From: Stigmatella ashevillena
Lineage (GTDB): Bacteria; Myxococcota; Myxococcia; Myxococcales; Myxococcaceae
Reading direction: 5' to 3'
Assembly (NCBI RefSeq): GCF_028368975.1
Contig: NZ_JAQNDM010000002.1
Location: 3,218,425 to 3,282,424 of the forward strand
DNA: 64,000 nucleotides
Part shown: positions 2,936 through 62,724 of the stretch, piece after piece
How positions within the stretch are numbered: the first letter of the stretch is position 1
Layout: every line of letters begins with the position of its first letter
Translations under genes and position numbers: made by a program
Notes under the pieces: generated by a model
Seen by the model: only the letters and a program-made list of their open reading frames with translations
Databases searched by the model: none
Told to the model about the DNA's origin: nothing

Positions 2936-3631
2936 CTACTCCCGGCCGCTGCCGCCGTAGCCCTGGGCGCGGTCGAGCAGGTTCTCCCACTGGGCGCGCG
3001 CCTGGCGCTCCTGTTTCTGATCCTTCTCGACCTGCTTCTGCACGGAGGCCAACCGGCCCCGGGCGTCCGCGACGGACGAGTTGAAGTCGGCTTCGGAGAG
3101 CCCATCGGCACGGACATCTCCGCTCGCCTTCAGGGCCTTGTACTCGGCCAGGGAGAGCTCCGCGCTGGCCACCTCCGCCTCGCGCTCCCGGAGCTGCTTC
3201 ATCGTCTTCTTCGTCTCCACCACGTGCTCGCGCCAGGCCACCTGCGCCTTCGCGGCGTCCTGCATGCCTTGCGCGGCCTTCAAGGACGCTTGCGCTTCCC
3301 GGATGTGCTCCCGCTGGCCCTGGGCCTCGGCAGCTTTCACCGAAGCTTCCTCGGCCTCCTTGCGCATGCGGGCTGCCCCCTCCTCGCGGCGGACGACCTC
3401 CAGCGCGCGCTCCGCATCACGGATCTCCACGTCCGCCCGGACGATGGCGTCATTGGCCTGCATCCGCTCGGTCTGCGCCTGCCGGACGCCTCCCAGCTGA
3501 TCCTCGGGAACCCGCGCCAGCCACTCTTCCTTTATCCGACTGTTCGAGTGCCCCGCGCTGCATCCGCTCAAAGCCACCAAGGCACCGCCCGCGACCGCCA
3601 GCAGCGCCTTCCTCCAGTTCGTCCGGACCAT
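2936..3631 (-). CDS. Coiled-coil lipoprotein of unknown function
   Basis: This 231-residue protein has a basic N-terminus, a hydrophobic stretch and the lipobox LSGC (Cys24), so it should be a lipoprotein anchored in the envelope. Residues from about 45 to 225 are almost entirely Ala/Glu/Lys/Arg/Gln heptad-like sequence, predicting long coiled coils similar in look to periplasmic spacer lipoproteins. No catalytic motif is visible. It converges on kdsD, and the next minus-strand gene upstream (mutual distance 130 bp) is a TPR protein. Confidence 0.8.
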   Translation of the reverse strand: MVRTNWRKALLAVAGGALVALSGCSAGHSNSRIKEEWLARVPEDQLGGVRQAQTERMQANDAIVRADVEIRDAERALEVVRREEGAARMRKEAEEASVKAAEAQGQREHIREAQASLKAAQGMQDAAKAQVAWREHVVETKKTMKQLREREAEVASAELSLAEYKALKASGDVRADGLSEADFNSSVADARGRLASVQKQVEKDQKQERQARAQWENLLDRAQGYGGSGRE

Positions 3632-48851: not shown

Positions 48852-48964
48852 GCGCCGCCGCGCCCAGTGGAGCGCGCGTGTCTGTCCCAGGTGTCAACCC
48901 GCGGTTTCCACCTGCCGGGCCTCAAGTTCCCGAAATGTCAGGAACGACACGTTTTGAAGCGGGT

Positions 48965-48980
48965 GGGCACGGGAGGTGCA
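48965..48980 (+). promoter_or_regulatory. Candidate sigma-54 (-24/-12) promoter
   Basis: GGGCACGGGAGGTGCA differs from TGGCACG-N4-TTGCA at two positions but has GG (48966-48967) and GC (48978-48979) exactly 10 bp apart. It lies 37 bp before the lipoprotein start and 114 bp after an FHA-sigma-54 activator gene. An inverted repeat TGTC-N6-GACA (48936-48949) just upstream could be an activator site. Confidence 0.55.
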
Positions 48981-49016
48981 GTTGAGTTTTGCACACCCCC
49001 GATAGTTGGAGACCTC

Positions 49017-50225
49017 ATGAACAAGAAGTCCCTCTTCCTCACCACCGCCCTGCTTGCCGCCCCTTTCACAGGGTGTGGACCCGGCGCCCCCTCCGAGGAA
49101 GATGCCTCTCTGCCCGTGGACACACAGGCCGAGGGACTCACCCTGCAGAACTGCACGGCCCTGACCCCCACCGCCGTGACCGCCATCGGCGATGATGGCG
49201 ATGGCAGCGTGGCCAGCAATACCCAGGACGACAACCTGGCGACGCGTTGGAGCCACCTCGGGCCCGGAAGCTGGATCCAGTACGATCTCGGCTCCGCCAA
49301 GAACATCTCTGGCGCCGCGGTGGCGTGGCACATGGGTAACACGCGGACCAGCCCCTTCTCCCTCGCTGTCTCCACGGACGGGAGCCAATTCACTTCCGTC
49401 TACAGCGGCACCAGCAGCGGCACCACCACCGCCGCCGAGACGTACCGGTTCACCGAGAAGAGCGCCCGGTATTTGCGCATCCGGGTCGACGGAAACAGCG
49501 CCAGCCAGTGGTCCTCCATCACCGAGGCCCGTGTGTGCGCGACGCCGCAAGCCGCGCCGGCACCGTCCCCCAACGTCGTGTGGCGAGGCGACTTTGAAAC
49601 GGGAAGCATCTCCCAGTGGAGCCACACGCAAGCGGTGAGCGCGGACCGGCTGCAGATCGTCAACTCCCCTGCCCGCCAAGGCTCCTACGCCATCAAGGCC
49701 ACCGTCCAACAGGGGGATGACCCCATCAACTCGAGCGGCAACCGCAACGAGCTCGTCTACATGTCCCATGAGCCGGTGAACTCCGAGTTCTATTACCGGT
49801 GGAGCACCCGGTTCGCGGCGAACTTCCCCAGCGTGAAGACCTGGCAGTTGTTCACGCAATGGCACCACGAAGGCTGCTGCGGCTCGCCGCCCGTGGAGTT
49901 CTACGTCTACGGAGAGGAGATCCGCCTCTCGATTGGCGGCAACAGCCCGGTCATCGTCTGGACGACGCCGCTGGTCCGGGACGCGTGGCACGACTTCATC
50001 TTCCACGTGAAGTGGTCCGCGGATGCGAGCGTGGGCTTCGTGGAGCTGTACCACAACGGCAAGATCGTCCTGCCCAAGCGCAAGATCGCCACGATGTTCT
50101 CTGACTCGCTCAACTACCTGAAGGTGGGCCTCTACCGGAGTGACACGGTCCAGCCGGTGGGGGTCGTGTACCACGACGGATGGGTACAGGCCCGCACCCT
50201 GGAGGCCGTCCTGGCCGAGCCGTAA
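49017..50225 (+). CDS. Discoidin-domain polysaccharide-lyase-like lipoprotein
   Basis: The ATG at 49017 opens a 402-residue lipoprotein (lipobox FTGC). Residues about 45-165 are an F5/8-type (discoidin/CBM32) carbohydrate-binding domain: ATRWSHLGPGSWIQYDLGSA and RYLRIRVDGNS. Residues about 185-395 resemble the heparin-lyase/alginate-lyase-like polysaccharide-lyase fold (WRGDFETGSISQW, then RNELVYMS, FYYRWSTRF and LKVGLYRSD). Probably a surface polysaccharide-degrading enzyme or adhesin; the substrate is unknown. It has its own sigma-54-like promoter and terminator. Confidence 0.8.
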   Translation: MNKKSLFLTTALLAAPFTGCGPGAPSEEDASLPVDTQAEGLTLQNCTALTPTAVTAIGDDGDGSVASNTQDDNLATRWSHLGPGSWIQYDLGSAKNISGAAVAWHMGNTRTSPFSLAVSTDGSQFTSVYSGTSSGTTTAAETYRFTEKSARYLRIRVDGNSASQWSSITEARVCATPQAAPAPSPNVVWRGDFETGSISQWSHTQAVSADRLQIVNSPARQGSYAIKATVQQGDDPINSSGNRNELVYMSHEPVNSEFYYRWSTRFAANFPSVKTWQLFTQWHHEGCCGSPPVEFYVYGEEIRLSIGGNSPVIVWTTPLVRDAWHDFIFHVKWSADASVGFVELYHNGKIVLPKRKIATMFSDSLNYLKVGLYRSDTVQPVGVVYHDGWVQARTLEAVLAEP

Positions 50226-50258: not shown

Positions 50259-50293
50259 ACGCCACCCCATGACCTGGGGTGGCGTCACATTTT
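50259..50293 (+). terminator. Intrinsic terminator after the polysaccharide-lyase gene
   Basis: A perfect 11-bp stem ACGCCACCCCA (50259-50269) and TGGGGTGGCGT (50275-50285) with a 5-nt loop is followed by CACATTTT. It separates the lipoprotein from the following operon. Confidence 0.8.
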
Positions 50294-50353: not shown

Positions 50354-51406
50354 ATGCAACCAGGGCTCGCAGCGCCTCCTTCCTATAAGGAGAATGCCGT
50401 CCCCTTCCTGGCAGGCGACGGCCGGAAACTGCACTTGGTCCATGTTCAGGGGGCACAAGCCCCCAGCCGAGGACCGGTGGTGCTCGTCCACGGGGCAGGC
50501 GTGCGCGCCAACATCTTCCGGGCGCCCATCGCGGAAACACTCGTCGATGCGCTGATCGCAGACGGCTACGACGTGTGGCTGGAAAACTGGCGCGCCAGCA
50601 TCGATGTGGAGCCCAGCGAGTGGACGCTCGATCAGGCGGCCGTCCACGACCACCCCCGTGCCATCCAGACGATCGTCCGGGAGACGGGCTGGGATGAAGT
50701 CAAAGCCATCATCCACTGCCAGGGCTCGACGAGCTTCATGCTGTCGGCCGTGGCGGGCCTCATTCCCCAGGTCAAGCTGATCATCAGCAACGCTGTCTCC
50801 CTTCACCCCGTGGTGCCGCCCGCCGCGCGGCGGAAGCTCCGCTATGCGGTCCCGCTGGTGGCCCGGCTGACGCCTTACCTGGATCCGCAATGGGGCTTCC
50901 AGGCGGACAGCCTCACGGCCCAGGCGCTTACCCTGTTCGTGAAGGCCACCCACCACGAGTGCGACAACACCGTGTGCCGACTGGCGAGCTTCACCTATGG
51001 CGTGGGCACCCCGACGCTCTGGCGCCACGAGAACCTCAACCCGGCGACGCATGAGTGGCTGAAGCACGAGTTCGCCAAGGTCCCGCTCACCTTCTTCCAC
51101 CAGATGTCCGAGTGCGTGCGCGCCGGACACTTGGTGCCCGTGGAGGGCTACCGGGAACTTCCCGAGGATGTGGCCGAGCGCTCGCCCCAGACGGAGGCCC
51201 GCTTCGTGCTGCTCGCCGGCGAGCGAAACGACTGCTTCCTGCCGGAGAGCCAGCAGCGGACCTACGACTTCCTCTCGCGCCACCGGCCCTCGTACCACGC
51301 ACTGCACCGGATACCGGGCTATGGCCACCTCGACATCTTCATGGGCCAGCGGGCCGCCCGGGATGTCTTCCCCCTCATTCGAGCCGAGCTGAGCAAGCCG
51401 GTGTGA
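50354..51406 (+). CDS. Alpha/beta-fold hydrolase with Cys nucleophile
   Basis: The start at 50354 has GGGGAGG just upstream and gives a 350-residue protein. The oxyanion loop is HGAG (46-49). The nucleophile elbow reads IIHCQGS, placing Cys122 where most hydrolases have Ser, as in PHA synthases and dienelactone hydrolases. Asp is in LLAGERND and His in IPGYGHLD. It opens an operon with a GMC oxidoreductase and a patatin; relatives are often fused to cholesterol-oxidase-like GMC proteins. Hydrolysis or acyl transfer on a lipid is likely, but the substrate is unknown. Confidence 0.85.
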   Translation: MQPGLAAPPSYKENAVPFLAGDGRKLHLVHVQGAQAPSRGPVVLVHGAGVRANIFRAPIAETLVDALIADGYDVWLENWRASIDVEPSEWTLDQAAVHDHPRAIQTIVRETGWDEVKAIIHCQGSTSFMLSAVAGLIPQVKLIISNAVSLHPVVPPAARRKLRYAVPLVARLTPYLDPQWGFQADSLTAQALTLFVKATHHECDNTVCRLASFTYGVGTPTLWRHENLNPATHEWLKHEFAKVPLTFFHQMSECVRAGHLVPVEGYRELPEDVAERSPQTEARFVLLAGERNDCFLPESQQRTYDFLSRHRPSYHALHRIPGYGHLDIFMGQRAARDVFPLIRAELSKPV

Positions 51407-51418
51407 TGGAGCACTGCC

Positions 51419-52324
51419 ATGTTCAAGATACCGAGGCGAATCAAGCAGCAGACGGGGCGCTACGCGAAGGTGGATGGCATTCCCTACGCACTGCCCATCA
51501 ACTCCCGGGCGTCGCCTGCCTTGATGGCGGCCTTCACCCTCGATGCACGCAAGGCCGCGGCGTTGATGCCCGGCAACGAGGTGCACCCGCTGAGGCTGTG
51601 GGGCAACAAGGGCGTTCTGTTCATCACGGTCATCGACTACCGAGACACCGACATCGGTCCCTACATCGAGTTCAGCGTCGCCATCGCTTGCACCCATGGG
51701 AGGAGGCCGGCGCCTCCACTCCTTCCCCTGCTGTTCCAACGCCACCATGGGCTGGGGCAGTACGTGGTGGATCTGCCCGTCAGCACGGAGATCTCCGTGA
51801 AGGGCGGCAAGGGCATCTGGGGCATGCCCAAGCACCAGGCGAACCTGGATTTCCACATCGGTGGCCGCACGGTCAGCAGCCAGTATGACAAGGACGGGCA
51901 ACTGGCGGTGCGCATCGAAATCGATCGGCCCCAGCGGGCCTGGCTCCCCATGCGGGCCAGCGCCGCCAACTACTGTCAGTTCCGCGGGATGCTGATGAAG
52001 TCTTCCATCTATTTCCGAGGAAAGTTTGGCTTCGGCTTCGGCTCCAAGGCCTCGGCCCGGCTCACCCTGGGCTCTCACCCCCGCGTCCAGGCCCTCAAGC
52101 ACCTTGGCATCGCGCCCAAGCCCTTCTTCACGGGCTTCCTTCCTGCTTCGAGCGGTGTGCTGGACGACCACTTCGAGTCCTGGTTCCTCAGCTACCCACA
52201 GCTCCCCGCCGGGCAACCCGAGGGACTGGAGAGCGTCACCCGCCTCGGCCTGAGCCAGCAATGGCTGCCAGGTCCTCACCAGAGGAGGGATGGAACAGAG
52301 ACAGGAACGGGAGCACACCCATGA
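51419..52324 (+). CDS. Acetoacetate decarboxylase-like protein
   Basis: The 301-residue protein belongs to the acetoacetate decarboxylase (ADC) superfamily. The Schiff-base segment is GIWGMPKH, with Lys138 aligned to the ADC catalytic lysine, whereas the second lysine that lowers its pKa is His139. This is common in ADC-like enzymes of other function. It lies 12 bp after the Cys-nucleophile hydrolase and overlaps the next gene by 4 bp. It may decarboxylate or otherwise process a keto acid derived from the lipid handled by this operon. Confidence 0.8.
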   Translation: MFKIPRRIKQQTGRYAKVDGIPYALPINSRASPALMAAFTLDARKAAALMPGNEVHPLRLWGNKGVLFITVIDYRDTDIGPYIEFSVAIACTHGRRPAPPLLPLLFQRHHGLGQYVVDLPVSTEISVKGGKGIWGMPKHQANLDFHIGGRTVSSQYDKDGQLAVRIEIDRPQRAWLPMRASAANYCQFRGMLMKSSIYFRGKFGFGFGSKASARLTLGSHPRVQALKHLGIAPKPFFTGFLPASSGVLDDHFESWFLSYPQLPAGQPEGLESVTRLGLSQQWLPGPHQRRDGTETGTGAHP

Positions 52325-52848
52325 AGGCCCCTGTCCTCTCCACCCTCAACGCCTGCCTCCTGTTCCTGTGTACCTCGATGTATCTGGGGACCGGCTGGTC
52401 GCTCGTGTTGTTCTCATTCCCCATTGCCCCGCAGCTCACGGTGGACAACTACTTTCTCCAGTTCGTCCCCCAGGTGAGCGCGGCCACCCGCTTTTTCACC
52501 TGGATGACCCTGGTGATGGGGGTCTCTTCGGTCGCCTTGTTCATCTCCGAGCGCCGGAGCCGGCTGCGCACCTATCCCGCGCTGGTCTTCCTCGCCCTGG
52601 TGGCCGCCACCTTGCTCACCCGGTTCTTCATCTTCCCCTACAACGCGGAGATGGCTTCGGGCATCCGGGATCCGCAGCGCCTCGGAGAAGTACTCGCCGC
52701 ATGGATGGCCACCAACCGCGTTCGCGTGGGGCTGTGGACCGTGCAGTGGCTGTCGATGATGGGCTACTTCGCCCACAAACTGCTGCGTGGGGAGTCCCCC
52801 CTCCCCAAGAAAGCGGCCTTCCGCCCCTGGATGGAGGCACGGTCATGA
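52321..52848 (+). CDS. Small polytopic membrane protein
   Basis: The 175-residue protein has four hydrophobic helices (about 8-30, 48-72, 82-102, 135-152) and charged loops, resembling DUF1772-type or anthrone-oxygenase-like membrane proteins in layout. No catalytic residues are certain. Both ends overlap neighbours by 4 bp (ATGA), so it is tightly coupled to the ADC-like and patatin-fusion genes. Membrane anchoring of the pathway is the likely contribution. Confidence 0.78.
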   Translation: MKAPVLSTLNACLLFLCTSMYLGTGWSLVLFSFPIAPQLTVDNYFLQFVPQVSAATRFFTWMTLVMGVSSVALFISERRSRLRTYPALVFLALVAATLLTRFFIFPYNAEMASGIRDPQRLGEVLAAWMATNRVRVGLWTVQWLSMMGYFAHKLLRGESPLPKKAAFRPWMEARS

Positions 52849-54881
52849 GGCGGCTCTCCGAGCGCGGGCTTCACTGGGCCTTGAAGGCGATCGGCGCCAT
52901 CACGCTGATCAGCGGTGCCGTGCAGATCATCGCCCCCAGCTTCGAACTCAGACTCCTCGGGACCCAGCCGTCCCCCGCCAGCGTTCACTTCTTCGGAACC
53001 ATTGGCATGTTCATGGTTCTCTTCGGCGGACTGCTGCTCCATGTGCTGAGACAGCCCCAGGAGAACCGGGATGCCTTCGTGTGGGTGGCCCTTCAAAAGC
53101 TCGGGGCGGCCTATGCCGTGGCCTGGGGCGTCACCCGGGACATCTTCTCGCCCATCACCCTGGGAGTCGCCGGGTTCGATCTGCTCTCCGCGCTTTTGAT
53201 CCTGGGCTACCTCCAGACGCTTCGCGCGCCCCAACGCCCGGTGGCCTCTGCCCTTCTCAAGACTGCCCCCAGGACACCGTCCCCTCCTCCAGAGCCCTCC
53301 CCCGCGCGTCCACCCGCTTCCCCTCCACCGGACGAGACCCGGAGGCGGTCTCTCATCCTTGCGGGCGGTGGCATGCGGGTGGCCTGGCAAGCGGGTGCAC
53401 TGCGCGCGTTTCACGAAGCGGGCATTCACTTTGCCCACGGAGATGGAACCTCGGGCGGAATCATGAATCTGGCGATGATGCTGTCGGGCCAGCTCCCCGA
53501 GGAGATGTGTGGCCGCTGGCGGACCCTGCGCATCCAGGACTTCGTCTCCTTCCGCTCTCCCGAGAAGTATCTGAAGGCCTGGGACATGGAAGCCCTGGGA
53601 GATGCCGATGGAATCGTCCACCACGTCTTCCCGCACCTGGGCATCGACGTGGACGCCATCCGCGCCAACACCACGATGGAAGGCAGCTTCAACATCTGCG
53701 ACTTCACGCGCAAGACGAACGAGGCCATTCCGCATGATCAGGTGGATCTGGACATCCTCGTCGCGGGCATCTCGCTGCCCATCTTCATGCCACCCGTCCG
53801 GAAGGCTGGCACGCTCTACCTGGACTCCGTCTGGATCCAGGATGCCAACCTGCTCGAAGCCGTGCGGCGGGGCGCGGATGAGCTCTGGGTGCTGTGGTGC
53901 ATTGGCAACACGTCCACCTACCGCACGGGCGTCTTTCCTCAGTACGTCCACATGATCGAGCTGAGCGCCAACGGGGCCCTCCTCGCCCAGCTCGAGCGCA
54001 TCCAGGAAATCAATGACCGCATCCGTGCGGGCGAAACGGTCCACGGCCACCAGCGGCCCATCGTCGTTCACCTCATCAAGCCCGAGCGGCCCTTGCCGCT
54101 CGATCCGGATCTCTACGCCGGACACATCACCGCGGACACCCTCATTGACCAGGGGTACGCGGACGCCTGGCGCTACCTCTCCACCCGCACCGGGCAAGGC
54201 CTTCCCCTCACGCCGGAGATCACCCAAATGAAAGCATTCCCTCCCAGCCTCACCTTCCGTGAGACGATGTCCGGAGCCCTGGCGCTCGGAGAGACCGAGC
54301 CCCTGGCCGGTGCCGGCAAAGGCCGGTCCACCCCCTTCACCTTCCACGCGACGATCAGCGTGGATGACATGGAGGCCTTCGTGCGGGATCCGGAGCACTC
54401 GGCCCTGCTCGTGGCCCACATCTCCTATCCTCCGTTTGGGAACGACATCCCCGTGAAGCAGGGAAGCTTCAACCTCTTCAAGGCCGGTGATGACCCCAAG
54501 ACGCGGCTGATGACCTACGGAATGGCCTTCGAGCATCAAGGCCGCGAGTACTACCTGGCCGGCACCAAGACCATCCGCGACGACCGGGGCGCGGACCTGT
54601 GGCGCGACACCACCCGGCTCTATTGCCGCCTGCACGAAGGGAGCGACGAGCGCGGCGCGGTGGTGGGCGCGGGCGTCCTCAAGCTGACGCTCGGCCAGCT
54701 CCTCAAGCTCGTCTCCAGCATGCGCTCCTCTCTCGAAGGGAACGAGGGGCGCGAGGCGGTGCTGCGCTTCGGCCAGTTCTTCTTGGGCACCCTCTGGGAT
54801 GTGTATGCGCCCATGGCACAGAAGACAGAAACCCTGGCGGGCGAAGCCCGTGCGCCTCATGACGCCGGAGCCGCTCCATGA
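52845..54881 (+). CDS. Membrane-anchored patatin-like phospholipase fusion
   Basis: The 678-residue protein has three parts. Residues 1-130 are four membrane helices; a Pro-rich linker follows. Residues about 168-430 are a patatin domain with oxyanion GGGMR (174-178), GTSGG nucleophile Ser203 and the dyad Asp327 in YLDSVW (usually DGG/DGA). Residues about 540-660 form a separate domain (FTFHATISVDDMEAF, and KTIRDDRGADLWRDTT) like that found in cholesterol-oxidase-like GMC proteins. The last feature ties it to the GMC gene it overlaps. It probably cleaves membrane lipids. Confidence 0.85.
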   Translation: MRRLSERGLHWALKAIGAITLISGAVQIIAPSFELRLLGTQPSPASVHFFGTIGMFMVLFGGLLLHVLRQPQENRDAFVWVALQKLGAAYAVAWGVTRDIFSPITLGVAGFDLLSALLILGYLQTLRAPQRPVASALLKTAPRTPSPPPEPSPARPPASPPPDETRRRSLILAGGGMRVAWQAGALRAFHEAGIHFAHGDGTSGGIMNLAMMLSGQLPEEMCGRWRTLRIQDFVSFRSPEKYLKAWDMEALGDADGIVHHVFPHLGIDVDAIRANTTMEGSFNICDFTRKTNEAIPHDQVDLDILVAGISLPIFMPPVRKAGTLYLDSVWIQDANLLEAVRRGADELWVLWCIGNTSTYRTGVFPQYVHMIELSANGALLAQLERIQEINDRIRAGETVHGHQRPIVVHLIKPERPLPLDPDLYAGHITADTLIDQGYADAWRYLSTRTGQGLPLTPEITQMKAFPPSLTFRETMSGALALGETEPLAGAGKGRSTPFTFHATISVDDMEAFVRDPEHSALLVAHISYPPFGNDIPVKQGSFNLFKAGDDPKTRLMTYGMAFEHQGREYYLAGTKTIRDDRGADLWRDTTRLYCRLHEGSDERGAVVGAGVLKLTLGQLLKLVSSMRSSLEGNEGREAVLRFGQFFLGTLWDVYAPMAQKTETLAGEARAPHDAGAAP

Positions 54882-56638
54882 AGCAGGGACGGGAGCATTT
54901 CGACGCCATCATCGTTGGCTCCGGATTCGGAGGCTCGGTGATGGCCTGGCGGCTTGCCGAGGCAGGGCTCCGCGTCTGCGTCCTGGAGCGTGGCAAGGCC
55001 TATCCCCCAGGCTCATTCCCTCGCAGTCCCTACGGCATGCGCCGCAATTTCTGGGATCCGAGTGAGGGGCTTCAGGGGCTCTTCAACTTGTGGTCCTTCC
55101 GGGGGCTCGGTGGGGTGGTGGCCAGCGGACTCGGGGGCGGCTCGCTCATCTACGCCAACGTGCTGCTGCGCAAGGACGAGAAGACCTTTGTCCACGAGAA
55201 CCTTCGGGATGGCGGCTACGAGGACTGGCCCGTCAGCCGTGCGGATCTGGAGCCCCACTACGACGCCGTGGAGAAGATGCTCGGGGCTCAGCGCTACCCC
55301 TTCCAGGACGAGCCCTACCGTCACACCGCGAAGACGATCGCGATGAAGCTGGCCGCCGAGCGCATGGGCCTTCAGGACGATTGGCAGCTCCCGCCGTTGG
55401 CGGTCACCTTCGCCAACCCCGGCCAGAAGCCCGTTCCCGGTGAGCCCATCCAGGAGCGGCACCCCAACCTGCACGGGCGCACCCGCCTGACGTGCCGACT
55501 GTGTGGGGAGTGCGACATCGGCTGCAACTACGGAAGCAAGAACACGCTCGACTACACCTATCTGTCGGCCGCGAAGCGGCTTGGGGCGGAGCTGCGCGTC
55601 CGCTGCGAGGTGAAGTCCTTCTGGCGCGAAGGCTCGGAGTACGTCGTCGAGTACCTGGACCACTCCGAGGCACGGGAAGGCGAGCGCCCCGAGGTGCCCA
55701 CCTCGATGCTGCCGCGAACGGTCATCTCGGCGGACAAGCTCGTCCTGGCCGCGGGGACGTTCGGGACGACGTACCTGCTCCTCAAGAACCAGCAGGCATT
55801 CCCGGGGCTCAGCCCTCGGCTGGGAACCCGGTTCTGCGGCAACGGCGACCTGCTGGGCTTCCTCTCCAAGTGCACGGACCAGAGCCAAGGCCGGCGGGAG
55901 CCCCGGGTCCTCGATGGGGGCCATGGCCCCGTCATCACCAGTGCCCTTCACATCCGCGATGCGGCGGAGGGCGGCACCGGCCGCGGGTACTATGTGGAGG
56001 ACGCGGGCTATCCGGAGTTCGTCAACTGGCTCTACGAGGGGAGTGACCAGTTCGCCCTGCTCAAGCGTTTCGCGCGGCTGGGCCAACGCATCGTGAAAGG
56101 CTGGCTGGGTTTGAGCCGGGACACGGATGTGAGCGCGGAGATCGCCGAAGTGCTCGGGGACTGCGTGGGCTCCGCCAGCTCCCTGCCGCTGCTGGCCATG
56201 GGGAGGGATCTGCCCAGTGGCCGGATGTCGCTCAACCGGGATGGGTTGCTCGAAGTCGATTGGCGCATGCGCGACTCGGCCCCGTATTTCCGGCGTGTCC
56301 GCCAGACCATGGCGCAGATCGCGGACGTGCTGGAGGGATCGCTGATCCAGAACCCCCTCAGCTATCTGAGCCGCGTCATCACCGTGCACCCGCTGGGGGG
56401 ATGCCCCATGGGCCGCACCCGCATGGAAGGAGTGGTGGATTCTCATGGAGAGGTCTTCAACCACCCCGGGCTCTATGTGGCCGATGGCGCGGTGATGCCC
56501 GGTCCCACCGGCCCCAATCCCAGCCTGACCATCGCCGCCTTCGCCGATCGCTTCGCGGACCACCTGATCGAGCACTTCCACCGCCCTCCCCTCTCTTCTC
56601 CCACGCAGGAGGCGCCATGGGCTCATCCACCGATGTGA
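54878..56638 (+). CDS. Cholesterol-oxidase-like GMC flavoprotein
   Basis: The 586-residue FAD enzyme has the dinucleotide fold IIVGSGFGGSVMAWRLAEAG, the Gly-rich GGVVASGLGGGSLIYAN, and the C-terminal HPLGGCPMGR and PGPTGPNPSLTIAA signature of cholesterol-oxidase-like GMC oxidoreductases. It has no signal peptide. Cys206, Cys209, Cys212 and Cys216 form a CX2CX2CX3C set in CRLCGECDIGC, a pattern that could bind an Fe-S cluster. It likely oxidises a sterol or other lipid alcohol. It overlaps both flanking genes. Confidence 0.9.
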   Translation: MKQGREHFDAIIVGSGFGGSVMAWRLAEAGLRVCVLERGKAYPPGSFPRSPYGMRRNFWDPSEGLQGLFNLWSFRGLGGVVASGLGGGSLIYANVLLRKDEKTFVHENLRDGGYEDWPVSRADLEPHYDAVEKMLGAQRYPFQDEPYRHTAKTIAMKLAAERMGLQDDWQLPPLAVTFANPGQKPVPGEPIQERHPNLHGRTRLTCRLCGECDIGCNYGSKNTLDYTYLSAAKRLGAELRVRCEVKSFWREGSEYVVEYLDHSEAREGERPEVPTSMLPRTVISADKLVLAAGTFGTTYLLLKNQQAFPGLSPRLGTRFCGNGDLLGFLSKCTDQSQGRREPRVLDGGHGPVITSALHIRDAAEGGTGRGYYVEDAGYPEFVNWLYEGSDQFALLKRFARLGQRIVKGWLGLSRDTDVSAEIAEVLGDCVGSASSLPLLAMGRDLPSGRMSLNRDGLLEVDWRMRDSAPYFRRVRQTMAQIADVLEGSLIQNPLSYLSRVITVHPLGGCPMGRTRMEGVVDSHGEVFNHPGLYVADGAVMPGPTGPNPSLTIAAFADRFADHLIEHFHRPPLSSPTQEAPWAHPPM

Positions 56639-58332
56639 TGGACCCCCCCGCCGCTGCGCCGACGCGCCCTCCCAAGCGCCCTCCGGGCCATCGGATGGTG
56701 TCCTGGCTCGATCCCCTCATCCTCGCGAAGACGGGCATGCGGGCCGTCATCTCTTCCACCATTGGAAAGCAGGCGGATCGGCGGCTGCTCGACGCGCTGT
56801 CCGCGCCCAAGATCGAACCCCATGATTTTTCCGTCGATGCGGCGGGCCACCCCCGGCGTGAACTCTGGCTCGACTACGTGTCGGACTTGGGCGATGGCTG
56901 GGACTCGACCTATGCCGTCGCCCTCGCGGTGTCTCAGCCCAAGCTGACGTTGCGAGACGAGACCGGAGCGTCTCACGAGACACAGGGCGGCGAGATGCTC
57001 GTGTTCGGCGGTGACGAGGTGTACCCGGCGGCGAGCGTGAAGGCTTACGAGGAGAAGACCGTCCAGCCCTGGAGCTCGGCGATGCGCGGGCAGCGCCCGC
57101 CTCCGCACCTGTTCGCGGTCCCGGGAAACCATGATTGGTACGACGGACTTGTCTCCTTCATGCGGCTGTTCTGCCAGGGCCGCAGTCCGGCGGGCTGGCA
57201 GACCCACCAGCGGCGCAGCTACTTCGCCGTGAAGCTGCCCCAGGGATGGTGGTTGCTCGGCACGGACATGCAGCTCGAGTCCGACATCGACCAGCCCCAG
57301 GTCTGCTACTTCCAGGAGATCGCCAAGCACATCGGGGACCAGGACCGCATCATCCTCTGTCTGGCGGAGCCCGCGTGGTTGACAGCCCAGGTCCGCCCAC
57401 ACACGGAAAGGTCCTATCTGGAGAACAACCTCGATTTTCTCGAGGAGAAGGTGCTGGGAAAGAAAGTCAGCGTCTTTCTCGCGGGAGATCTCCACCACTA
57501 CCGGCGCCATGCCGACGCCGAAGGGCGGCAGAAGATCACCGCAGGAGGAGGAGGCGCTTTTCTACACCCGACCCACCTGCCCGGGCGGCATCCCACGTCC
57601 CTGGAAGGCTTTACCCCCCGAAAGAGCTTCCCCACCGCCGAGGAATCCCGGCGGCTGTGCTGGCGCAACCTCGGTCTCGTGAAGAGCAACCCGCGATTTG
57701 GAATCCTCTCGGGCCTGCTCTACATGTTGCTGGCCTGGGCGCTGGCGGTGAACATCGGCACGGCGAGCCTCTCTGCCGCCCTGGGACACGTGGCAGGCGC
57801 GGCGCTCTCCACCCCGAGCAGTGCGCTGGCCTGTCTCTTCACCGTGGTTGGATTGATCGCCTTCGCGGACCGCAAATTCGGACGCTGGCGATGGCTCGCG
57901 GGGCTCATGCACAGCCTCGCACACCTGGGCGCGGCGTTCCTCATTGCCTGGGGCGCGTCGCACCTCCTGGGCACGGCCCTGAACCTCCCCTTCCGGAGTC
58001 CGCAGCGGGACCTCTTGAGCGCCCTGCTCATCTTCGCGGGGGGCTTCCTCGCGGGACCGTCGATCATGGGGCTCTACCTGCTCCTGTCCCTCAATGTCTT
58101 CGGCGCCCATGCGAACGAAGCCTTCTCCTCGCTGGCCATTCCAGACTGGAAGAACTTCCTCCGACTGCGCATCGCTCCGGACGGGCGGCTGTGGATCTAC
58201 CCCGTCGGCATCCGGCGGGTTCCCCGCGCCTGGAAACCCGGAGAGACGGTCCGCGAGCCTGAGTGGGTGGCGGACCCCAAGGACCGGAGGGCCACCCCCC
58301 CTGTGCTGATCGAACCGCCGCTCGTCCTCTGA
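56617..58332 (+). CDS. Membrane-anchored metallophosphoesterase
   Basis: The start at 56617 has GGAGG just upstream. The 571-residue protein has a calcineurin-like domain (about 85-340): SDLGDGWDS, GGDEVYP, PGNHDWYDGL and AGDLHHYRRH give the metal ligands. Four to five membrane helices follow (about 365-510) and a short soluble tail. Substrate is unknown; phospholipid or nucleotide phosphodiesters are candidates. It overlaps the GMC gene by 22 bp and closes the six-gene operon. Confidence 0.88.
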   Translation: MGSSTDVMDPPAAAPTRPPKRPPGHRMVSWLDPLILAKTGMRAVISSTIGKQADRRLLDALSAPKIEPHDFSVDAAGHPRRELWLDYVSDLGDGWDSTYAVALAVSQPKLTLRDETGASHETQGGEMLVFGGDEVYPAASVKAYEEKTVQPWSSAMRGQRPPPHLFAVPGNHDWYDGLVSFMRLFCQGRSPAGWQTHQRRSYFAVKLPQGWWLLGTDMQLESDIDQPQVCYFQEIAKHIGDQDRIILCLAEPAWLTAQVRPHTERSYLENNLDFLEEKVLGKKVSVFLAGDLHHYRRHADAEGRQKITAGGGGAFLHPTHLPGRHPTSLEGFTPRKSFPTAEESRRLCWRNLGLVKSNPRFGILSGLLYMLLAWALAVNIGTASLSAALGHVAGAALSTPSSALACLFTVVGLIAFADRKFGRWRWLAGLMHSLAHLGAAFLIAWGASHLLGTALNLPFRSPQRDLLSALLIFAGGFLAGPSIMGLYLLLSLNVFGAHANEAFSSLAIPDWKNFLRLRIAPDGRLWIYPVGIRRVPRAWKPGETVREPEWVADPKDRRATPPVLIEPPLVL

Positions 58333-58404: not shown

Positions 58405-59730
58405 GTGAAGCAGGGGAACATCTTGGCGCTGGGGGTGATGCTCCTCCTGGCCCCCATGGCACGGGCGCAGGAGGAAGCAGGGGACCCCGCGCCATCCGAA
58501 GCGGCCTCCGCCCAGGCGCTCGCGGTGTACGAGCAAGGCAAGCGCCTCTACGACGCGAAAGACTACCTGGGGGCCTTGGAGCGGTTCGACCAGGCCGCGG
58601 CGCTGGAGCCCGACAAGGCACGCTGGCAATACAACCGGGGCCTGACCCTGCGGAAGCTCAACCGCTTCGAGGAAGCCCGGACGGCCTTGCTTCACTCCCG
58701 TGCGCTCGACCCGGCCTACAAGCAGGCGGAGATCGACGACAAGCTGCAGGAGATGGGCTTCTCGGACACACCTGCCCCGGAGATCAAACGCGTAGCGTCT
58801 CCCACTCCCACGGGCTTCCAGGGCCTGGGGTCCCTCCTGTGTGGCGTCGGTCCTTTCGTCGGCGCCTTGGCCATCCTGTACTGGATGTTCAGGCGAAGCG
58901 CCTCCCGGAGGCAGCGCGAACACGGGGGGCCGTTGCCTTCTTCCGCGCAGCTCCCCGCTGTCCCTGTCTCTCAGCGGGAGGAATTCGCGCCGCAGGACCC
59001 GCGGCTGGACCCTGTCTCCAACTCACTCGCCCAGGTGGAGCACGCCCTGCGGCTGGACGAGGACGCCGACCTGCGGGCCCTGCTCAATCAAGCCACCATG
59101 GCCGAGCAGCGGGCCCGAGAGGCCCTGGAGCGCGCTCGGAAGAAACAGCTCCCACAGAAAGCCGCCGAGGAGCAACTCCGGGCCGCGCAGGAGAGCACGG
59201 AGGCCGCGGTGAAGCGGGCCCGGAGCCTGTTCGGAGAACGGGCTTTCCAGCCTGAAGGCGAGCGCGTGGGCTGCTATTTCTGCGCGCGCCCGCTGGCCAA
59301 TCCCGCCTTCCGGGCGCAGGTGCCCCTCAAGCGGGGCGAGGACATCACGAAGGTCCTCTCCTGCCCACCGTGCGCGAACATGGCCTCCGCGGGACAGCCG
59401 CCTCCCGTCAAGGTCCATCAGATGCGCAACGGGCAGACCGAGCACTGGAGTGAGCTGGACGGGTATGATCCCTACACCCATCGCCACAAGCCCTATCCGC
59501 ACATGAACCTGGTGCCCGCCTGGCAGTACACCCCGGAGCGTTCCCTGGGCGAGGTGGCGGCCCTGGCCGCGGGCGGGGCCCTGGCGACGGGGCTGGCGGC
59601 CTATGGCGTGAGCAAGCTGTTGGACCTCGACACCGCGAGCGAGGCGGCAGCCGCCCAGGCCGCGACCCAGGCCTCGGCGGTGCAGGCCGGTCAGCGCCGC
59701 GAAGAGCGCGACTGGAGGGACCACTCCTGA
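58405..59730 (+). CDS. TPR membrane protein with zinc-ribbon-like motif
   Basis: The GTG at 58405 has a GAGGGAG site upstream. The 441-residue protein has a signal peptide, two to three TPR repeats (about 35-130), one membrane helix (about 150-170), a charged coiled-coil (about 200-280), and paired cysteines CYFCARP and CPPCAN about 30 residues apart, probably a zinc ribbon. The C-terminus is Ala-rich. It precedes the glycosyltransferase/radical SAM genes and overlaps the first by 1 bp (TGATG). It may be an assembly or anchoring factor. Confidence 0.75.
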   Translation: MKQGNILALGVMLLLAPMARAQEEAGDPAPSEAASAQALAVYEQGKRLYDAKDYLGALERFDQAAALEPDKARWQYNRGLTLRKLNRFEEARTALLHSRALDPAYKQAEIDDKLQEMGFSDTPAPEIKRVASPTPTGFQGLGSLLCGVGPFVGALAILYWMFRRSASRRQREHGGPLPSSAQLPAVPVSQREEFAPQDPRLDPVSNSLAQVEHALRLDEDADLRALLNQATMAEQRAREALERARKKQLPQKAAEEQLRAAQESTEAAVKRARSLFGERAFQPEGERVGCYFCARPLANPAFRAQVPLKRGEDITKVLSCPPCANMASAGQPPPVKVHQMRNGQTEHWSELDGYDPYTHRHKPYPHMNLVPAWQYTPERSLGEVAALAAGGALATGLAAYGVSKLLDLDTASEAAAAQAATQASAVQAGQRREERDWRDHS

Positions 59731-60818
59731 TGGGCACGCCTCGCTTCGTCTTCTATGCCGTCAACGGCCTGGGGCTGGGCCACGTCACGCGCCTGGTGTC
59801 CATCGCCCGGGCGCTGCGCCGACTCTCTCCTGGGTGCGAGGTGCTCTTCCTCACCTCCTCCGAGGCGGACCATGTCATCTACCGCGAGGGCTTCGCTGCG
59901 GTGAAGCTTCCCTCGAAGACGATCCGCGAGCACTGCGGCCTGCGCAAGGGGAGCTACCTCAAGCTGGCCCAAACGGTGACGTGGAACACGATCTCCGCCT
60001 TCGATCCGGACGTGCTGGTGGTGGACACCTACCCCACCGGCTCCTTCGAGGAACTCCTCCCCGTCCTGCGCTGGCGCCAGAAGAACGTCTTCATCTTCCG
60101 CGAGCAACGGGCCGAGGCGGCGGGCTCGCAACTGCTCCAGGCCTCCCTGCGGCTGTATGACCGGATTCTCATTCCACATGAGAGTGTGTCCCAAGCGGGG
60201 CCGGTGCCCGAGCCCGCCAAGGCCCTGGCCGTGGGGCCCATCCTCATCCGCGAGCGCTACGAGCTGCCCACCCGGACGCAGGCGCGCAAGGCGCTCGGGC
60301 TCTCGGCGGAGGAGACGCTGCTCTACGCCTCCTTCGGTGGTGGAGGAGACCCCGAGGCGGCCCGCGCCTTGACGCTCACGGCCCAGGTGGCCCGAGAGCT
60401 GTCCGGCGTGCGGCTGGTGGTGGGCGCGGGCCCGCTGTGGCGCGAGCAGCCCCCCGCCTTGGAGGGGGCAGTGGTGCTCCAGGGCCGCTACCCTGCCCTG
60501 GACTTCCTGCCCGCCTTCGATGCGGCGGTGACGGCGGCCGGGTACAACGCCGTCCATGAGCTGCTCTACGCGGGCATCCCCTCCATCTTCGTTCCCTTCG
60601 AGCGGATGGTGGACGACCAGGAGAAACGCGCGCGGGAGGTGGCCGCAGCGGGAGCGGGACTCGCATGCACGCCGCTGACGCGAGAGGGGCTCACGCGGGC
60701 GGTACGGGAAGTCCTGAACCCGGACGTGCGCCAGCGCCTGAGCGCGGCTGCCCAGAAAAAGGTGGAGCGCAATGGCGCGGAGGCCGCGGCCCGGGCGCTG
60801 ATGGAGCTGCTCGCATGA
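59730..60818 (+). CDS. MurG/GT28-like glycosyltransferase
   Basis: The 362-residue protein has the GT-B fold: N-terminal GLGLGHVTRLVSIARAL, a linker, and a C-terminal domain with YASFGGGGDPEAA, the nucleotide-sugar region AGYNAVHELLYAGIPSIFVPFE and DDQEKRA. This is close to the MurG/UGT (GT28/GT1) clan. The donor and acceptor are unknown. It overlaps the TPR gene by 1 bp and the first radical SAM gene by 4 bp, so it is part of the same unit. Confidence 0.88.
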   Translation: MGTPRFVFYAVNGLGLGHVTRLVSIARALRRLSPGCEVLFLTSSEADHVIYREGFAAVKLPSKTIREHCGLRKGSYLKLAQTVTWNTISAFDPDVLVVDTYPTGSFEELLPVLRWRQKNVFIFREQRAEAAGSQLLQASLRLYDRILIPHESVSQAGPVPEPAKALAVGPILIRERYELPTRTQARKALGLSAEETLLYASFGGGGDPEAARALTLTAQVARELSGVRLVVGAGPLWREQPPALEGAVVLQGRYPALDFLPAFDAAVTAAGYNAVHELLYAGIPSIFVPFERMVDDQEKRAREVAAAGAGLACTPLTREGLTRAVREVLNPDVRQRLSAAAQKKVERNGAEAAARALMELLA

Positions 60819-61855
60819 AGAATCCGGACGCGATGAAGGAGCGCCTGAAGGGCTACCTGGAGCGCCGACCTCGCACCGGGCCCGAGACCGTGCACCTGGA
60901 TGTCACCAACGCGTGCAACCTCGATTGCATCACCTGCTGGAACTACGCACCGGACCTGGCCCAGCCCAAGCCGGTGTCCTGGAAGCGGCAACGGATGGAT
61001 GCGGCCACCTTCCACCGCATGGTGGATGAGTGCGCCGAAGCAGGAGCCGAGCGGATCGTCATCAGCGGTGGCGGAGAGCCCTTCACCCACCCAGACATCT
61101 ATTCCTTCATCGGCAAGGTGAAGGCGCGCGGCCTGCGGCTCACCGTCATCTCCAACGGAACGCTGTGTGACTGGGAGCGGGTCCGGGACCTGGCGGTGGA
61201 CCAGCTCCTGCTCAACATGGCCTCTGCCTCACCGGAGACCTACGTTGCCTACCATCCCAATCAGCCACCGGAGACCTTCCACCGGCTGCTGGAGGGCGTC
61301 CAGAAGGTGCGGGAAGTCACGGCCGTGAACCTGGTGCAGGTCATCAACCAGGTGAACTACCTGGAACTGCCAACGATGGTGCAGCTCGCGCACCGCGTGG
61401 GGGCACGGGCCTCCTTCAAGGTGGGAGACGTCCCCCGGGGCACCGAGCACCACGCGCTCACCGGCGCGCAGCGACAGCAGGTCCTCGAAACGCTCATCCC
61501 CGAGGCGCGCAAGCAGGCCAAGGCCCTGAAGGTGAAGCACAACCTGGACGCGTACGAGGCGCAGCTCTCGGGAAAGGGGCCCTCGGGGCAGGAGACGGGT
61601 TGCTTCGCGGGCTACCTCTACAGCCGCGTCTATGTGGATGGGCGCGTCTTCTTCTGCTGTGAGCACATCGAGGCAGGGCACGTGAAAGACGGGTCCTTCC
61701 AGGAGGTGTGGCGCGCCCCCGCGTACGAAGCGGTGCGCCAGCGGCTCCACCGAGGCGAGTACTATCCAGGCTGCGCGCGCTGCGGAAAGCACGACATGAA
61801 CTTCGCGGCGGCGCGGGACTTGCGCGAGATGCTCGAAGCGGGAGACCTGCCATGA
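60815..61855 (+). CDS. Radical SAM protein, SPASM type
   Basis: The 346-residue protein carries the radical SAM CX3CX2C motif (Cys34, Cys38, Cys41 in NACNLDCITCW), a GGGEPFTHPD loop, and C-terminal cysteines in CFAGYLY, VFFCCEH and GCARCGKH. This is the arrangement of SPASM/twitch auxiliary-cluster enzymes. These modify peptides, sugars or lipids. No precursor peptide is evident nearby, so the substrate may be the glycan or lipid made by the flanking transferases. It overlaps its neighbours by 4 bp each. Confidence 0.87.
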   Translation: MKNPDAMKERLKGYLERRPRTGPETVHLDVTNACNLDCITCWNYAPDLAQPKPVSWKRQRMDAATFHRMVDECAEAGAERIVISGGGEPFTHPDIYSFIGKVKARGLRLTVISNGTLCDWERVRDLAVDQLLLNMASASPETYVAYHPNQPPETFHRLLEGVQKVREVTAVNLVQVINQVNYLELPTMVQLAHRVGARASFKVGDVPRGTEHHALTGAQRQQVLETLIPEARKQAKALKVKHNLDAYEAQLSGKGPSGQETGCFAGYLYSRVYVDGRVFFCCEHIEAGHVKDGSFQEVWRAPAYEAVRQRLHRGEYYPGCARCGKHDMNFAAARDLREMLEAGDLP

Positions 61856-62724
61856 GCGGGCCACGTCCCACGGTGAGCTGGAACATCGTCGGCGGGTGTA
61901 ATTACCGCTGCACCTACTGCGTGCAGAAGCACATGCCGGGCATCGGCGGCCCCACGGACGAACAGCTCGAGGCGGCGCTCACCACGCTGACCGCCCTGCC
62001 TGGAAGCTGGGAGTTCAAGATCTCCGGCGGAGAGCCCTTTCTGCTCAAGCGGCTGCCGGAGGTGGCGAAGCGGCTGGCCACGGCGGGGCACAAGGTCTCG
62101 CTGCTCACCAACCTCTCGGCCCCCCTGCGCGTCCTCTCCACCTTCATCGAGGCAGCGGGGGAACAGCTGCGCACCTTCTCCTGCTCGCTGCACCGCGAGG
62201 AGGTGGAGGAGGCGGTGTTCCTCGAGAAGGCCCAGGCCGTCCAGGAGATGCTGGCGCGGTGGCCTCGCGCCACGTTTGTCGTCAACAGCGTGGTGGTGCC
62301 CGGCCAGGTGTCCGCGGTCTCCACCAGCCGCGAGCGCTTCGAGGAAGCCGGCATCAAGTTCTACCCACAGCTCATGCGGGTGGATGGAAAACCGGCCGAA
62401 TACGGGTGGATGGACCGCTGGCGCATCGACAGGGCGTTCGGGGACATGGTGTCCCCCTCGCAGATGAACCGCGGCTACCCGCTCAAGGGCTACCTGTGCC
62501 ACGCGGGCAGCAAGTACTTCATCATCCACCCCAAGGGGGATGCCTTCTCGTGCTATCCCGGCAAGCGTTTCGGGGAGGGACACCTGGGCAACGTCTTCGA
62601 CGGAACGTTGAAGCTGTGGGATGCGCCCGCCCCCTGCCGCTATGAGGTGTGCCCCTGCACGGTGCCCCAAAACCGGGGCATCATCGAAGGGTTCGGCCAG
62701 GGGGCCGAGGAAGACGCGCAATAG
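61852..62724 (+). CDS. Second radical SAM protein
   Basis: The 290-residue protein has the CX3CX2C motif (Cys16, Cys20, Cys23 in GCNYRCTYC), the ISGGEPF loop and a C-terminal cysteine set (LCHAG, SCYPGK, PCRYEVCPC) suited to an auxiliary Fe-S cluster. It is unlike the first radical SAM protein in spacing and C-terminus, so the two are not recent duplicates. Two radical SAM steps in one operon imply a chemically unusual product. It starts inside the stop of the preceding gene and ends 10 bp before the next. Confidence 0.86.
   Translation: MSGPRPTVSWNIVGGCNYRCTYCVQKHMPGIGGPTDEQLEAALTTLTALPGSWEFKISGGEPFLLKRLPEVAKRLATAGHKVSLLTNLSAPLRVLSTFIEAAGEQLRTFSCSLHREEVEEAVFLEKAQAVQEMLARWPRATFVVNSVVVPGQVSAVSTSRERFEEAGIKFYPQLMRVDGKPAEYGWMDRWRIDRAFGDMVSPSQMNRGYPLKGYLCHAGSKYFIIHPKGDAFSCYPGKRFGEGHLGNVFDGTLKLWDAPAPCRYEVCPCTVPQNRGIIEGFGQGAEEDAQ

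Follow-up and report, generated by a model that had tools for sequence, protein, structure and literature searches.

In a 64,000-nucleotide stretch of the Stigmatella ashevillena genome (hereafter ‘the window’; contig NZ_JAQNDM010000002.1), six genes lie head-to-tail on the plus strand at positions 50354–58332, each starting with ATG and ending with TGA; an earlier note, made from the letters of the window alone, had read them as a tightly packed lipid/sterol oxidation operon that matched no recognised pathway. The coordinates bear out both the run of six and its packing: a gap of 12 base pairs (bp) at the first junction is followed by overlaps of 4, 4, 4 and 22 bp, such that four of the five junctions overlap, and the start of the last gene is preceded by AGGAGG (56607–56612) with a 4-base spacer.

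Reading from the 5′ end, the first gene encodes an alpha/beta-hydrolase of 350 amino acids (aa), similar to acid lipases (ABH; 50354–51406); the second, a 301-aa protein of the acetoacetate decarboxylase superfamily (ADC; 51419–52324); and the third, a small membrane protein of 175 aa, distantly like anthrone-oxygenase/DUF1772 proteins (MEM; 52321–52848). The fourth product (52845–54881; 678 aa) had previously been described as a ‘patatin fusion’; its patatin domain is confirmed, yet the protein in fact has three parts—a membrane-type N-terminus (P4N), the patatin catalytic domain (PAT; aa 170–333, 53352–53843) and an unnamed, probably barrel-shaped C-terminal domain (CTD; about aa 453–671, 54201–54857). 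It is followed by a 586-aa oxidoreductase of the GMC family, dependent on flavin adenine dinucleotide (FAD) (GMC; 54878–56638), within which a cysteine motif, CX5CX3C (55493–55525), is proposed to form a [3Fe-4S] or [4Fe-4S] site, and by a 571-aa calcineurin-like metallophosphoesterase with membrane segments at its C-terminal end (MPE; 56617–58332).

Our searches covered up to 146 genomes each and the best 80 of 534 GMC relatives. Among the matches listed, 28 of 117 genomes of the order encode a GMC orthologue that is 70% identical or more, and 20 of these 28 loci were fetched for a survey of the modules. ABH, CTD and GMC are found together in all 20, accompanied by ADC in 16, PAT in 12, MPE in 12 and MEM in 10; seven loci hold all eight modules. 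The subfamily of ADC found in the operon (E < 1e-140) occurs in 22 of 146 Myxococcota genomes, always within approximately 5 kb of the GMC orthologue (as judged by comparing the coordinates of two genome scans by hand); other ADCs account for a further four matches in the same sample (E 1e-22 to 1e-28), the operon's ADC constituting a subfamily of its own, found only in this cluster among the Myxococcota sampled.

The 534 relatives were returned by scanning genome contigs with a profile built from the GMC alignment. Within the best 80, 48 loci are flanked on each side by 9 kb or more, the other 32 having less than 9 kb on one or both sides; in the 48 full loci, the modules found near GMC are CTD (44), ABH (30), PAT (23), MPE (19), ADC (16) and MEM (9). 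The best 80 loci carry 11 phylum labels, taken as submitted, with many belonging to metagenome-assembled genomes and several resting on a single locus. GMC and CTD co-occur under ten of these labels, the exception being the sole Thermodesulfobacteriota locus (L108); GMC, CTD and ABH co-occur under eight, the combination being absent from Thermomicrobiota, Gemmatimonadota and L108. Hosts include cyanobacteria, and an Arthrobacter plasmid (L034) carries all eight modules in a different order. The earlier note had allowed that the genes might not be kept together in any other genome; the set instead recurs both in Myxococcota and in other phyla. With 20 of 20 fetched loci in agreement, and recurrence elsewhere, the association is more than chance, and what is seen here is one form of a modular system that is widespread, rather than an oddity of one lineage.

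A quick tree of the GMC proteins (81 rows) contains 13 changes of phylum label against a minimum of 10, thus descent appears to have been mostly within phyla; rampant recent transfer was considered and rejected, as the tree mostly tracks the phyla. All-against-all clustering of 820 neighbouring open reading frames (ORFs) from 75 loci picked out a family of protein kinases recurring at 15 loci, along with small sets at 5 and 4, with the caveat that the picking of ORFs is crude in high-GC DNA and partners may be missed.

In loci lacking PAT the CTD is encoded as a separate gene, between ADC or ABH and GMC (e.g. L036, L040 and L049), whilst elsewhere it is fused to one or more of the enzymes. On plasmids of the alphaproteobacteria Azospirillum and Rhizobium, GMC, CTD and ABH form one stop-to-stop ORF (1164 and 1166 codons, the genes being annotated at 3432 and 3363 bases, respectively), the Azospirillum fusion having MPE directly upstream; Leptospira and Bernardetia plasmids likewise encode GMC-CTD-ABH in a single ORF. 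Fusions within Myxococcaceae take the form of GMC-CTD ORFs (799–815 codons), PAT-CTD and CTD-ABH. As it is found alone, and joined to each of GMC, PAT and ABH, the CTD is a partner common to three enzymes; moreover, by establishing which proteins act in concert, the fusions make the order of the pathway testable. Across the 117 genomes, the CTD is found at 116 places in 51 (places summed by hand), with a GMC match within approximately 3 kb at no fewer than 100 of them (hand count). Eight of the remaining 16 were inspected: four are PAT-CTD, two GMC-CTD and one CTD-ABH, whilst in the last the CTD is attached to an unrelated part. In a collection of plasmids, the CTD appears in nine records: in seven it falls within, or next to, a gene that carries a GMC or alpha/beta hydrolase annotation, and two are unannotated, one of which is the full Arthrobacter cluster.

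Several individual loci merit separate mention. The S. ashevillena genome itself encodes a paralogous GMC-CTD fusion (L147; C2 1545160–1547466), an 815-codon ORF that includes CX5CX3C. In Leptospira, a second GMC-like ORF directly follows the GMC-CTD-ABH fusion (L151:8700–10280). At L139, L140 and L142 a PAT-CTD gene adjoins MPE with no GMC match within the fetched stretch; judged by gene content, these are a second, GMC-free form of the module in Myxococcaceae. A 931-codon ORF (L144:7071–9863) joins the CTD to an unrelated half, which looks DUF362-like.

The CTD has no convincing family in Pfam among the 51 members compared (weak matches in single members only, best E 0.003), and comparison by sequence with the PDB gave no relative. 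Besides eight strands, its confident AlphaFold model (predicted local distance difference test score, pLDDT, 89.9) has a long helix at the C-terminal end; the overall shape is probably that of a barrel, as judged from the barrel proteins that it matches rather than from coordinates. Those matches mix chains of the ADC superfamily, of Diels-Alderases and of retinol-binding proteins, none of them, lipocalin-like and Diels-Alderase-like barrels included, reaching E 0.001 in Foldseek, and the best VIA-align match (Z 9.9, root-mean-square deviation 3.2 over 115 residues) is to an erythrocruorin chain and may reflect only a common arrangement. An ADC-like domain was considered and set aside: Foldseek ranks the ADC superfamily first (E 6e-3) but profile comparison returns a probability of just 0.2. 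Two residues, E473 and K575, are invariant (93 of 93), and may leave room for a catalytic role.

Turning to the oxidoreductase, membership of the GMC family is clear: GMC_oxred_N/C models score above their cut-offs (GMC_oxred_C, 68.7 bits against 24.6; E 1e-18), a GxGxxG motif is present, and the His/Asn pair (H504 and N547) is found in 102 of 102 homologues. The label of cholesterol oxidase fares less well. The protein scores 203.6 bits with the cholesterol-oxidase equivalog NF058674, for which the cut-off is 850; and whilst the nearest solved GMC proteins are cholesterol oxidases (1coy, 1b4v), sharing an HPLGG motif and the Asn of an NPxxTI motif, these have no Cys at the columns of C209, C212 and C216 (C206 falls outside the alignment). 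The loop that precedes the LDxTYL segment, in which a cholesterol oxidase would be expected to have no Cys-rich motif, carries in the operon's GMC the CX5CX3C motif (C206-X5-C212-X3-C216), present in all 102 homologues, with a fourth cysteine, C209, in 77; the same motif occurs in seven further proteins (four fusions and three paralogues), and one locus (L085) was left out of the 102 as its GMC is split over two ORFs.

The same spacing is known from a characterised enzyme. According to excerpts of the published description (PMC6719666), the FAD glucose dehydrogenase of Burkholderia cepacia (BcGDH) carries a [3Fe-4S] cluster on Cys212, Cys218 and Cys222, with His476/Asn519 as the likely catalytic pair; on that description the spacing of the cysteines is identical, and the His and Asn are 43 residues apart in both proteins. 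The presence of CX5CX3C in every homologue, together with the score far below the cholesterol-oxidase cut-off, favours a dehydrogenase over a sterol oxidase. We consider an iron-sulfur site in GMC, be it [3Fe-4S] or [4Fe-4S], to be likely; the enzyme is probably a lipid-alcohol dehydrogenase that exports electrons, as opposed to a sterol oxidase producing H2O2.

Saying this, a number of results pull in the opposite direction. The best match in a profile search of the PDB is the cholesterol oxidase 1coy (1.5e-34), the first match of another kind being the FAD glucose dehydrogenase 6a2u (4.9e-17), and the 102 rows are the nearest relatives found rather than a random sample. As a control, we examined GMC genes that lie beside gluconate-dehydrogenase subunit 3 (PF13618) at ten loci of the same order: a GMC-like ORF is present at all ten and the exact CX5CX3C at none. 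In support of the iron-sulfur reading, the Cys-rich loop of the one example aligned (L155, CX2CX2CX4C) occupies the columns of CX5CX3C, its last Cys being preceded by one extra residue. When the Cys region was searched as a profile by itself, 1coy was the sole solved GMC to match and 6a2u was not recovered. Moreover, the operon includes no gene for an electron acceptor: it encodes no PF13618 ‘hitchhiker’ subunit (the genome's only match lies at 8.27 Mb, and the cluster at 3.27 Mb), and CxxCH, expected of a multiheme cytochrome c, is found in none of its six proteins. An export signal was likewise seen in none of these, which we count in favour of the reading given below. The known FAD dehydrogenase complexes (BcGDH, fructose dehydrogenase) share with the operon both the GMC family and the His/Asn pair; as it lacks the hitchhiker subunit, the CxxCH protein and any visible export signal, however, the operon's GMC falls outside the BcGDH complex family as defined, and unlike its members is joined to CTD, Cys hydrolase, patatin and ADC. 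By analogy, the resemblance to the BcGDH type would lie in the proposed exit route for electrons.

Of the remaining enzymes, ABH, PAT and ADC keep their catalytic residues, with some substitutions. ABH scores 33.6 bits with Abhydrolase_1 (cut-off 25.8) and in profile comparison lies closest to gastric/lysosomal acid lipases, then to polyhydroxyalkanoate (PHA) synthases, the cut-offs for which it does not reach. It carries HCQGS in place of the Ser motif; C122, N292 (at the acid position) and H325 are each found in 70 of 70 rows (the best copy per locus), so that ABH departs from the acid lipases, and from the Ser nucleophile and Asp acid of serine alpha/beta-hydrolases, by an invariant Cys and an invariant Asn. 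PHA synthases also use a Cys nucleophile. The prior assignment as a Cys-nucleophile hydrolase is upheld, and the nucleophile points to thioester chemistry, be it transfer or hydrolysis. A second copy of ABH in one locus (L077:5455–6498), outside the 70 rows, carries Gly where the nucleophilic Cys would be (AHGIGA) and is probably a non-catalytic paralogue.

The assignment of the second gene as ADC-like is similarly secure: PF06314 scores 58.5 bits (cut-off 29.8; 9.2e-16), and the predicted fold matches solved ADCs (Foldseek, 3bgt, E 1.8e-11). Along with the PF06314 family and fold, it shares with the superfamily (ADC, MppR, Swit_4259) the lysine of the PK motif; the classical motif is PKK, and here the second Lys is His. 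K138 of this PKH motif and E84 are invariant in 40 of 40 rows, and we take K138, by homology, to be the Schiff-base lysine, a literature search for the equivalence having found nothing. ADC is never seen without ABH, either in the 25 ADC-bearing loci among the best 80 of 534 or in 16 further Myxococcota loci (the two sets overlap in species); as an association, this fits ADC acting on the product of ABH. Likewise, none of the 17 MEM-bearing loci among the same best 80 lacks ADC. MEM has three hydrophobic stretches, as befits the membrane protein previously proposed; PF08592 matches six of nine family members (best 2.8e-6), the window's own copy being without a match. The patatin domain scores 63.7 bits with PF01734 (cut-off 27.7; 3.5e-17), with S203 (GTSGG) and D327 present in 46 of 46 rows. 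For MPE, three hydrophobic stretches and the metal-type motifs GGD, GNH and GDxH, the residues of which are invariant in 40 of 40 rows, speak for the ‘membrane phosphoesterase’ of the earlier note, whereas its score with the Metallophos family PF00149 (17.7 bits) lies below the cut-off of 21.5.

Taking these data together, our reading of the system, to which we would assign a probability of roughly one half, is that of a cytoplasmic, membrane-attached multi-enzyme module that oxidises a molecule both hydrophobic and hydroxylated, a lipid alcohol or a hydroxyacyl lipid being probable. The CTD would bind the greasy substrate and pass it between the enzymes, as its predicted fold and fusions suggest; patatin and/or the Cys hydrolase would cleave or transfer an acyl group by way of a serine ester or cysteine thioester; and the His/Asn pair of GMC would then oxidise a secondary alcohol, yielding a ketone, whilst electrons are predicted, from the observed motif, to pass from FAD to a surface iron-sulfur cluster and on to a separate acceptor rather than O2. 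Where present, ADC would form a Schiff base with the beta-keto acid so produced, leading by decarboxylation (or a related aldol reaction) to a ketone. The membrane proteins and phosphoesterase would be optional, and might, at a guess, anchor the system or prepare substrates with phospho-head-groups. Decarboxylation is probably confined to those lineages that hold ADC. The scheme of release, oxidation and decarboxylation put forward in the earlier note fits, in that the catalytic residues of ABH, PAT, GMC and ADC are invariant and ADC never occurs without ABH, although the order itself is one that we infer from sequence; its sterol label is not supported, and its final step of phosphate removal is no more than a guess, the sixth protein falling below its Pfam cut-off. 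More tentatively, and at somewhat less than even odds, the system could represent an old and hitherto undescribed cytoplasmic multi-enzyme lipid-oxidation complex: an iron-sulfur GMC, a CTD that shuttles or activates lipid and a Cys-His-Asn hydrolase, linking lipid-alcohol oxidation to the respiratory chain, to which different lineages would have added modules that decarboxylate, cleave phospholipids or dephosphorylate.

Some observations sit uneasily with a common module of this kind. Three of the 48 full loci (L097, L108 and L133) are without CTD, ABH and PAT. In Corallococcus sicarius (L058) the cluster amounts to CTD, GMC and MPE alone, ABH being absent despite 10 kb of upstream sequence being present; one of the eight orthologous Myxococcota loci outside the 20 fetched lies on a contig of identical length (53676). 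Foldseek found no match for the CTD model in the PDB at E 0.001 or better, which makes lipid binding by this domain guesswork. In favour of a unit, distances between the proteins vary in step from module to module outside Myxococcaceae (GMC-MPE r 0.96, GMC-ADC 0.82, GMC-CTD 0.58, CTD-ABH 0.32; 0 of 999 permutations as high), as would be expected of joint inheritance, but mirror-tree correlation can also stem from shared ancestry alone.

Of the alternatives, the best placed, if still unlikely, takes a 3-hydroxy-fatty-acyl lipid as substrate, such that ABH/PAT would release the free acid, GMC would produce the 3-keto acid and ADC would yield a methyl ketone for use as a volatile or signal; ketone volatiles are a feature of myxobacteria, a topic on which our literature search gave no paper used here. 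Its appeal is a simple chemistry that employs hydrolase, secondary-alcohol dehydrogenase and beta-keto-acid decarboxylase alike, and that agrees with ADC occurring only together with ABH; the absence of ADC from 32 of the 48 full loci, however, indicates that decarboxylation is not the core purpose.

We think it improbable that the genes encode an O2-using pathway of the cholesterol-oxidase type, acting on sterols or sterol esters that are either self-made or derived from prey. The closest neighbours of GMC in the PDB and NCBIfam are indeed cholesterol oxidases, and it has the His/Asn pair; ABH resembles lysosomal acid lipase/cholesteryl ester hydrolase, and the genome has a triterpene-cyclase match. 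Set against this are the 203.6 of 850 bits, a CX5CX3C motif in all 102 GMCs, and the fact that no export signal was seen, unlike the ChoD of Streptomyces lavendulae, which is reported to have a twin-arginine translocation (TAT) signal (PMC6694107). The same report places this cholesterol oxidase, likewise, in a putative operon with lipid-type enzymes, the cho partners being regulators, a thioesterase, an acyl-CoA dehydrogenase and a methyltransferase. Seven of the 28 cluster-bearing genomes have no match to the squalene-hopene/oxidosqualene cyclase family (PF13243, E 1e-20), which counts only against a self-made substrate; an obligatory sterol or triterpenoid of the cell's own making is, on these grounds, disfavoured.

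A role in repairing damaged (oxidised) membrane lipids or in disposing of them, in which GMC would eliminate a reactive alcohol, is doubtful to a slightly greater degree: a phospholipase, membrane parts and a broad range of hosts that extends to cyanobacteria would suit such a role, but no stress regulator or peroxide enzyme recurred in our clustering of neighbours, which is crude and could miss one. Least credible by far is turnover of PHA, in which a Cys hydrolase resembling PHA synthase would act with a hydroxybutyrate dehydrogenase, and ADC would give acetone; it draws on the weak PHA-synthase matches of ABH and on PHA genes located approximately 6 kb from the Rhizobium fusion, and is disfavoured by the distribution of PhaC_N, found in just 6 of the 28 genomes that bear the cluster, and in none of the five from the operon's own genus.

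Each enzyme of the proposed membrane-attached lipid-oxidising module belongs to a known superfamily, the CTD alone being without a named family. As far as our literature searches show, it is the assembly and the iron-sulfur reading that are undescribed: in keeping with what had been suggested at the outset, these gave no description of this combination of genes, with most subscription papers lying outside their coverage. M. xanthus patatins on suberin are reported in PMC5158114, a link to the operon not being established, and the terms patatin, GMC, cholesterol, acetoacetate and sterol are all absent from the main text of an M. xanthus transcriptome study (PMC9548883). Two practical points follow for annotation. 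The nearest database matches of GMC suggest a cholesterol oxidase, where the invariant CX5CX3C predicts an iron-sulfur dehydrogenase instead; and with the CTD under no convincing Pfam model, yet found with GMC under ten phylum labels, a single solved member would help to re-annotate many genes.

Lastly, we consider the surroundings of the operon. Directly upstream (48951–50225, plus strand) lies a gene whose product is a polysaccharide-lyase protein (PF14099, E 2.5e-49) that also has an F5/8 type C domain. Between this gene and the operon, a perfect 10-bp inverted repeat with a 5-base loop (50260–50284), followed by TCACATTTT, can be seen by eye and is a possible terminator; our scan for sigma-70 promoters and terminators did not flag this hairpin, and gave no result on the plus strand. 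Downstream (59730–62724, plus strand) are a glycosyltransferase-like gene and two apparent radical S-adenosylmethionine genes (CxxxCxxC, by eye); the first two of these three were searched, and adjoin the operon only in L035. The same is true of the polysaccharide-lyase gene upstream and the TPR genes downstream, which, among the 20 fetched loci, adjoin the operon only in L035, its closest relative—a pattern that marks the limits of the operon.

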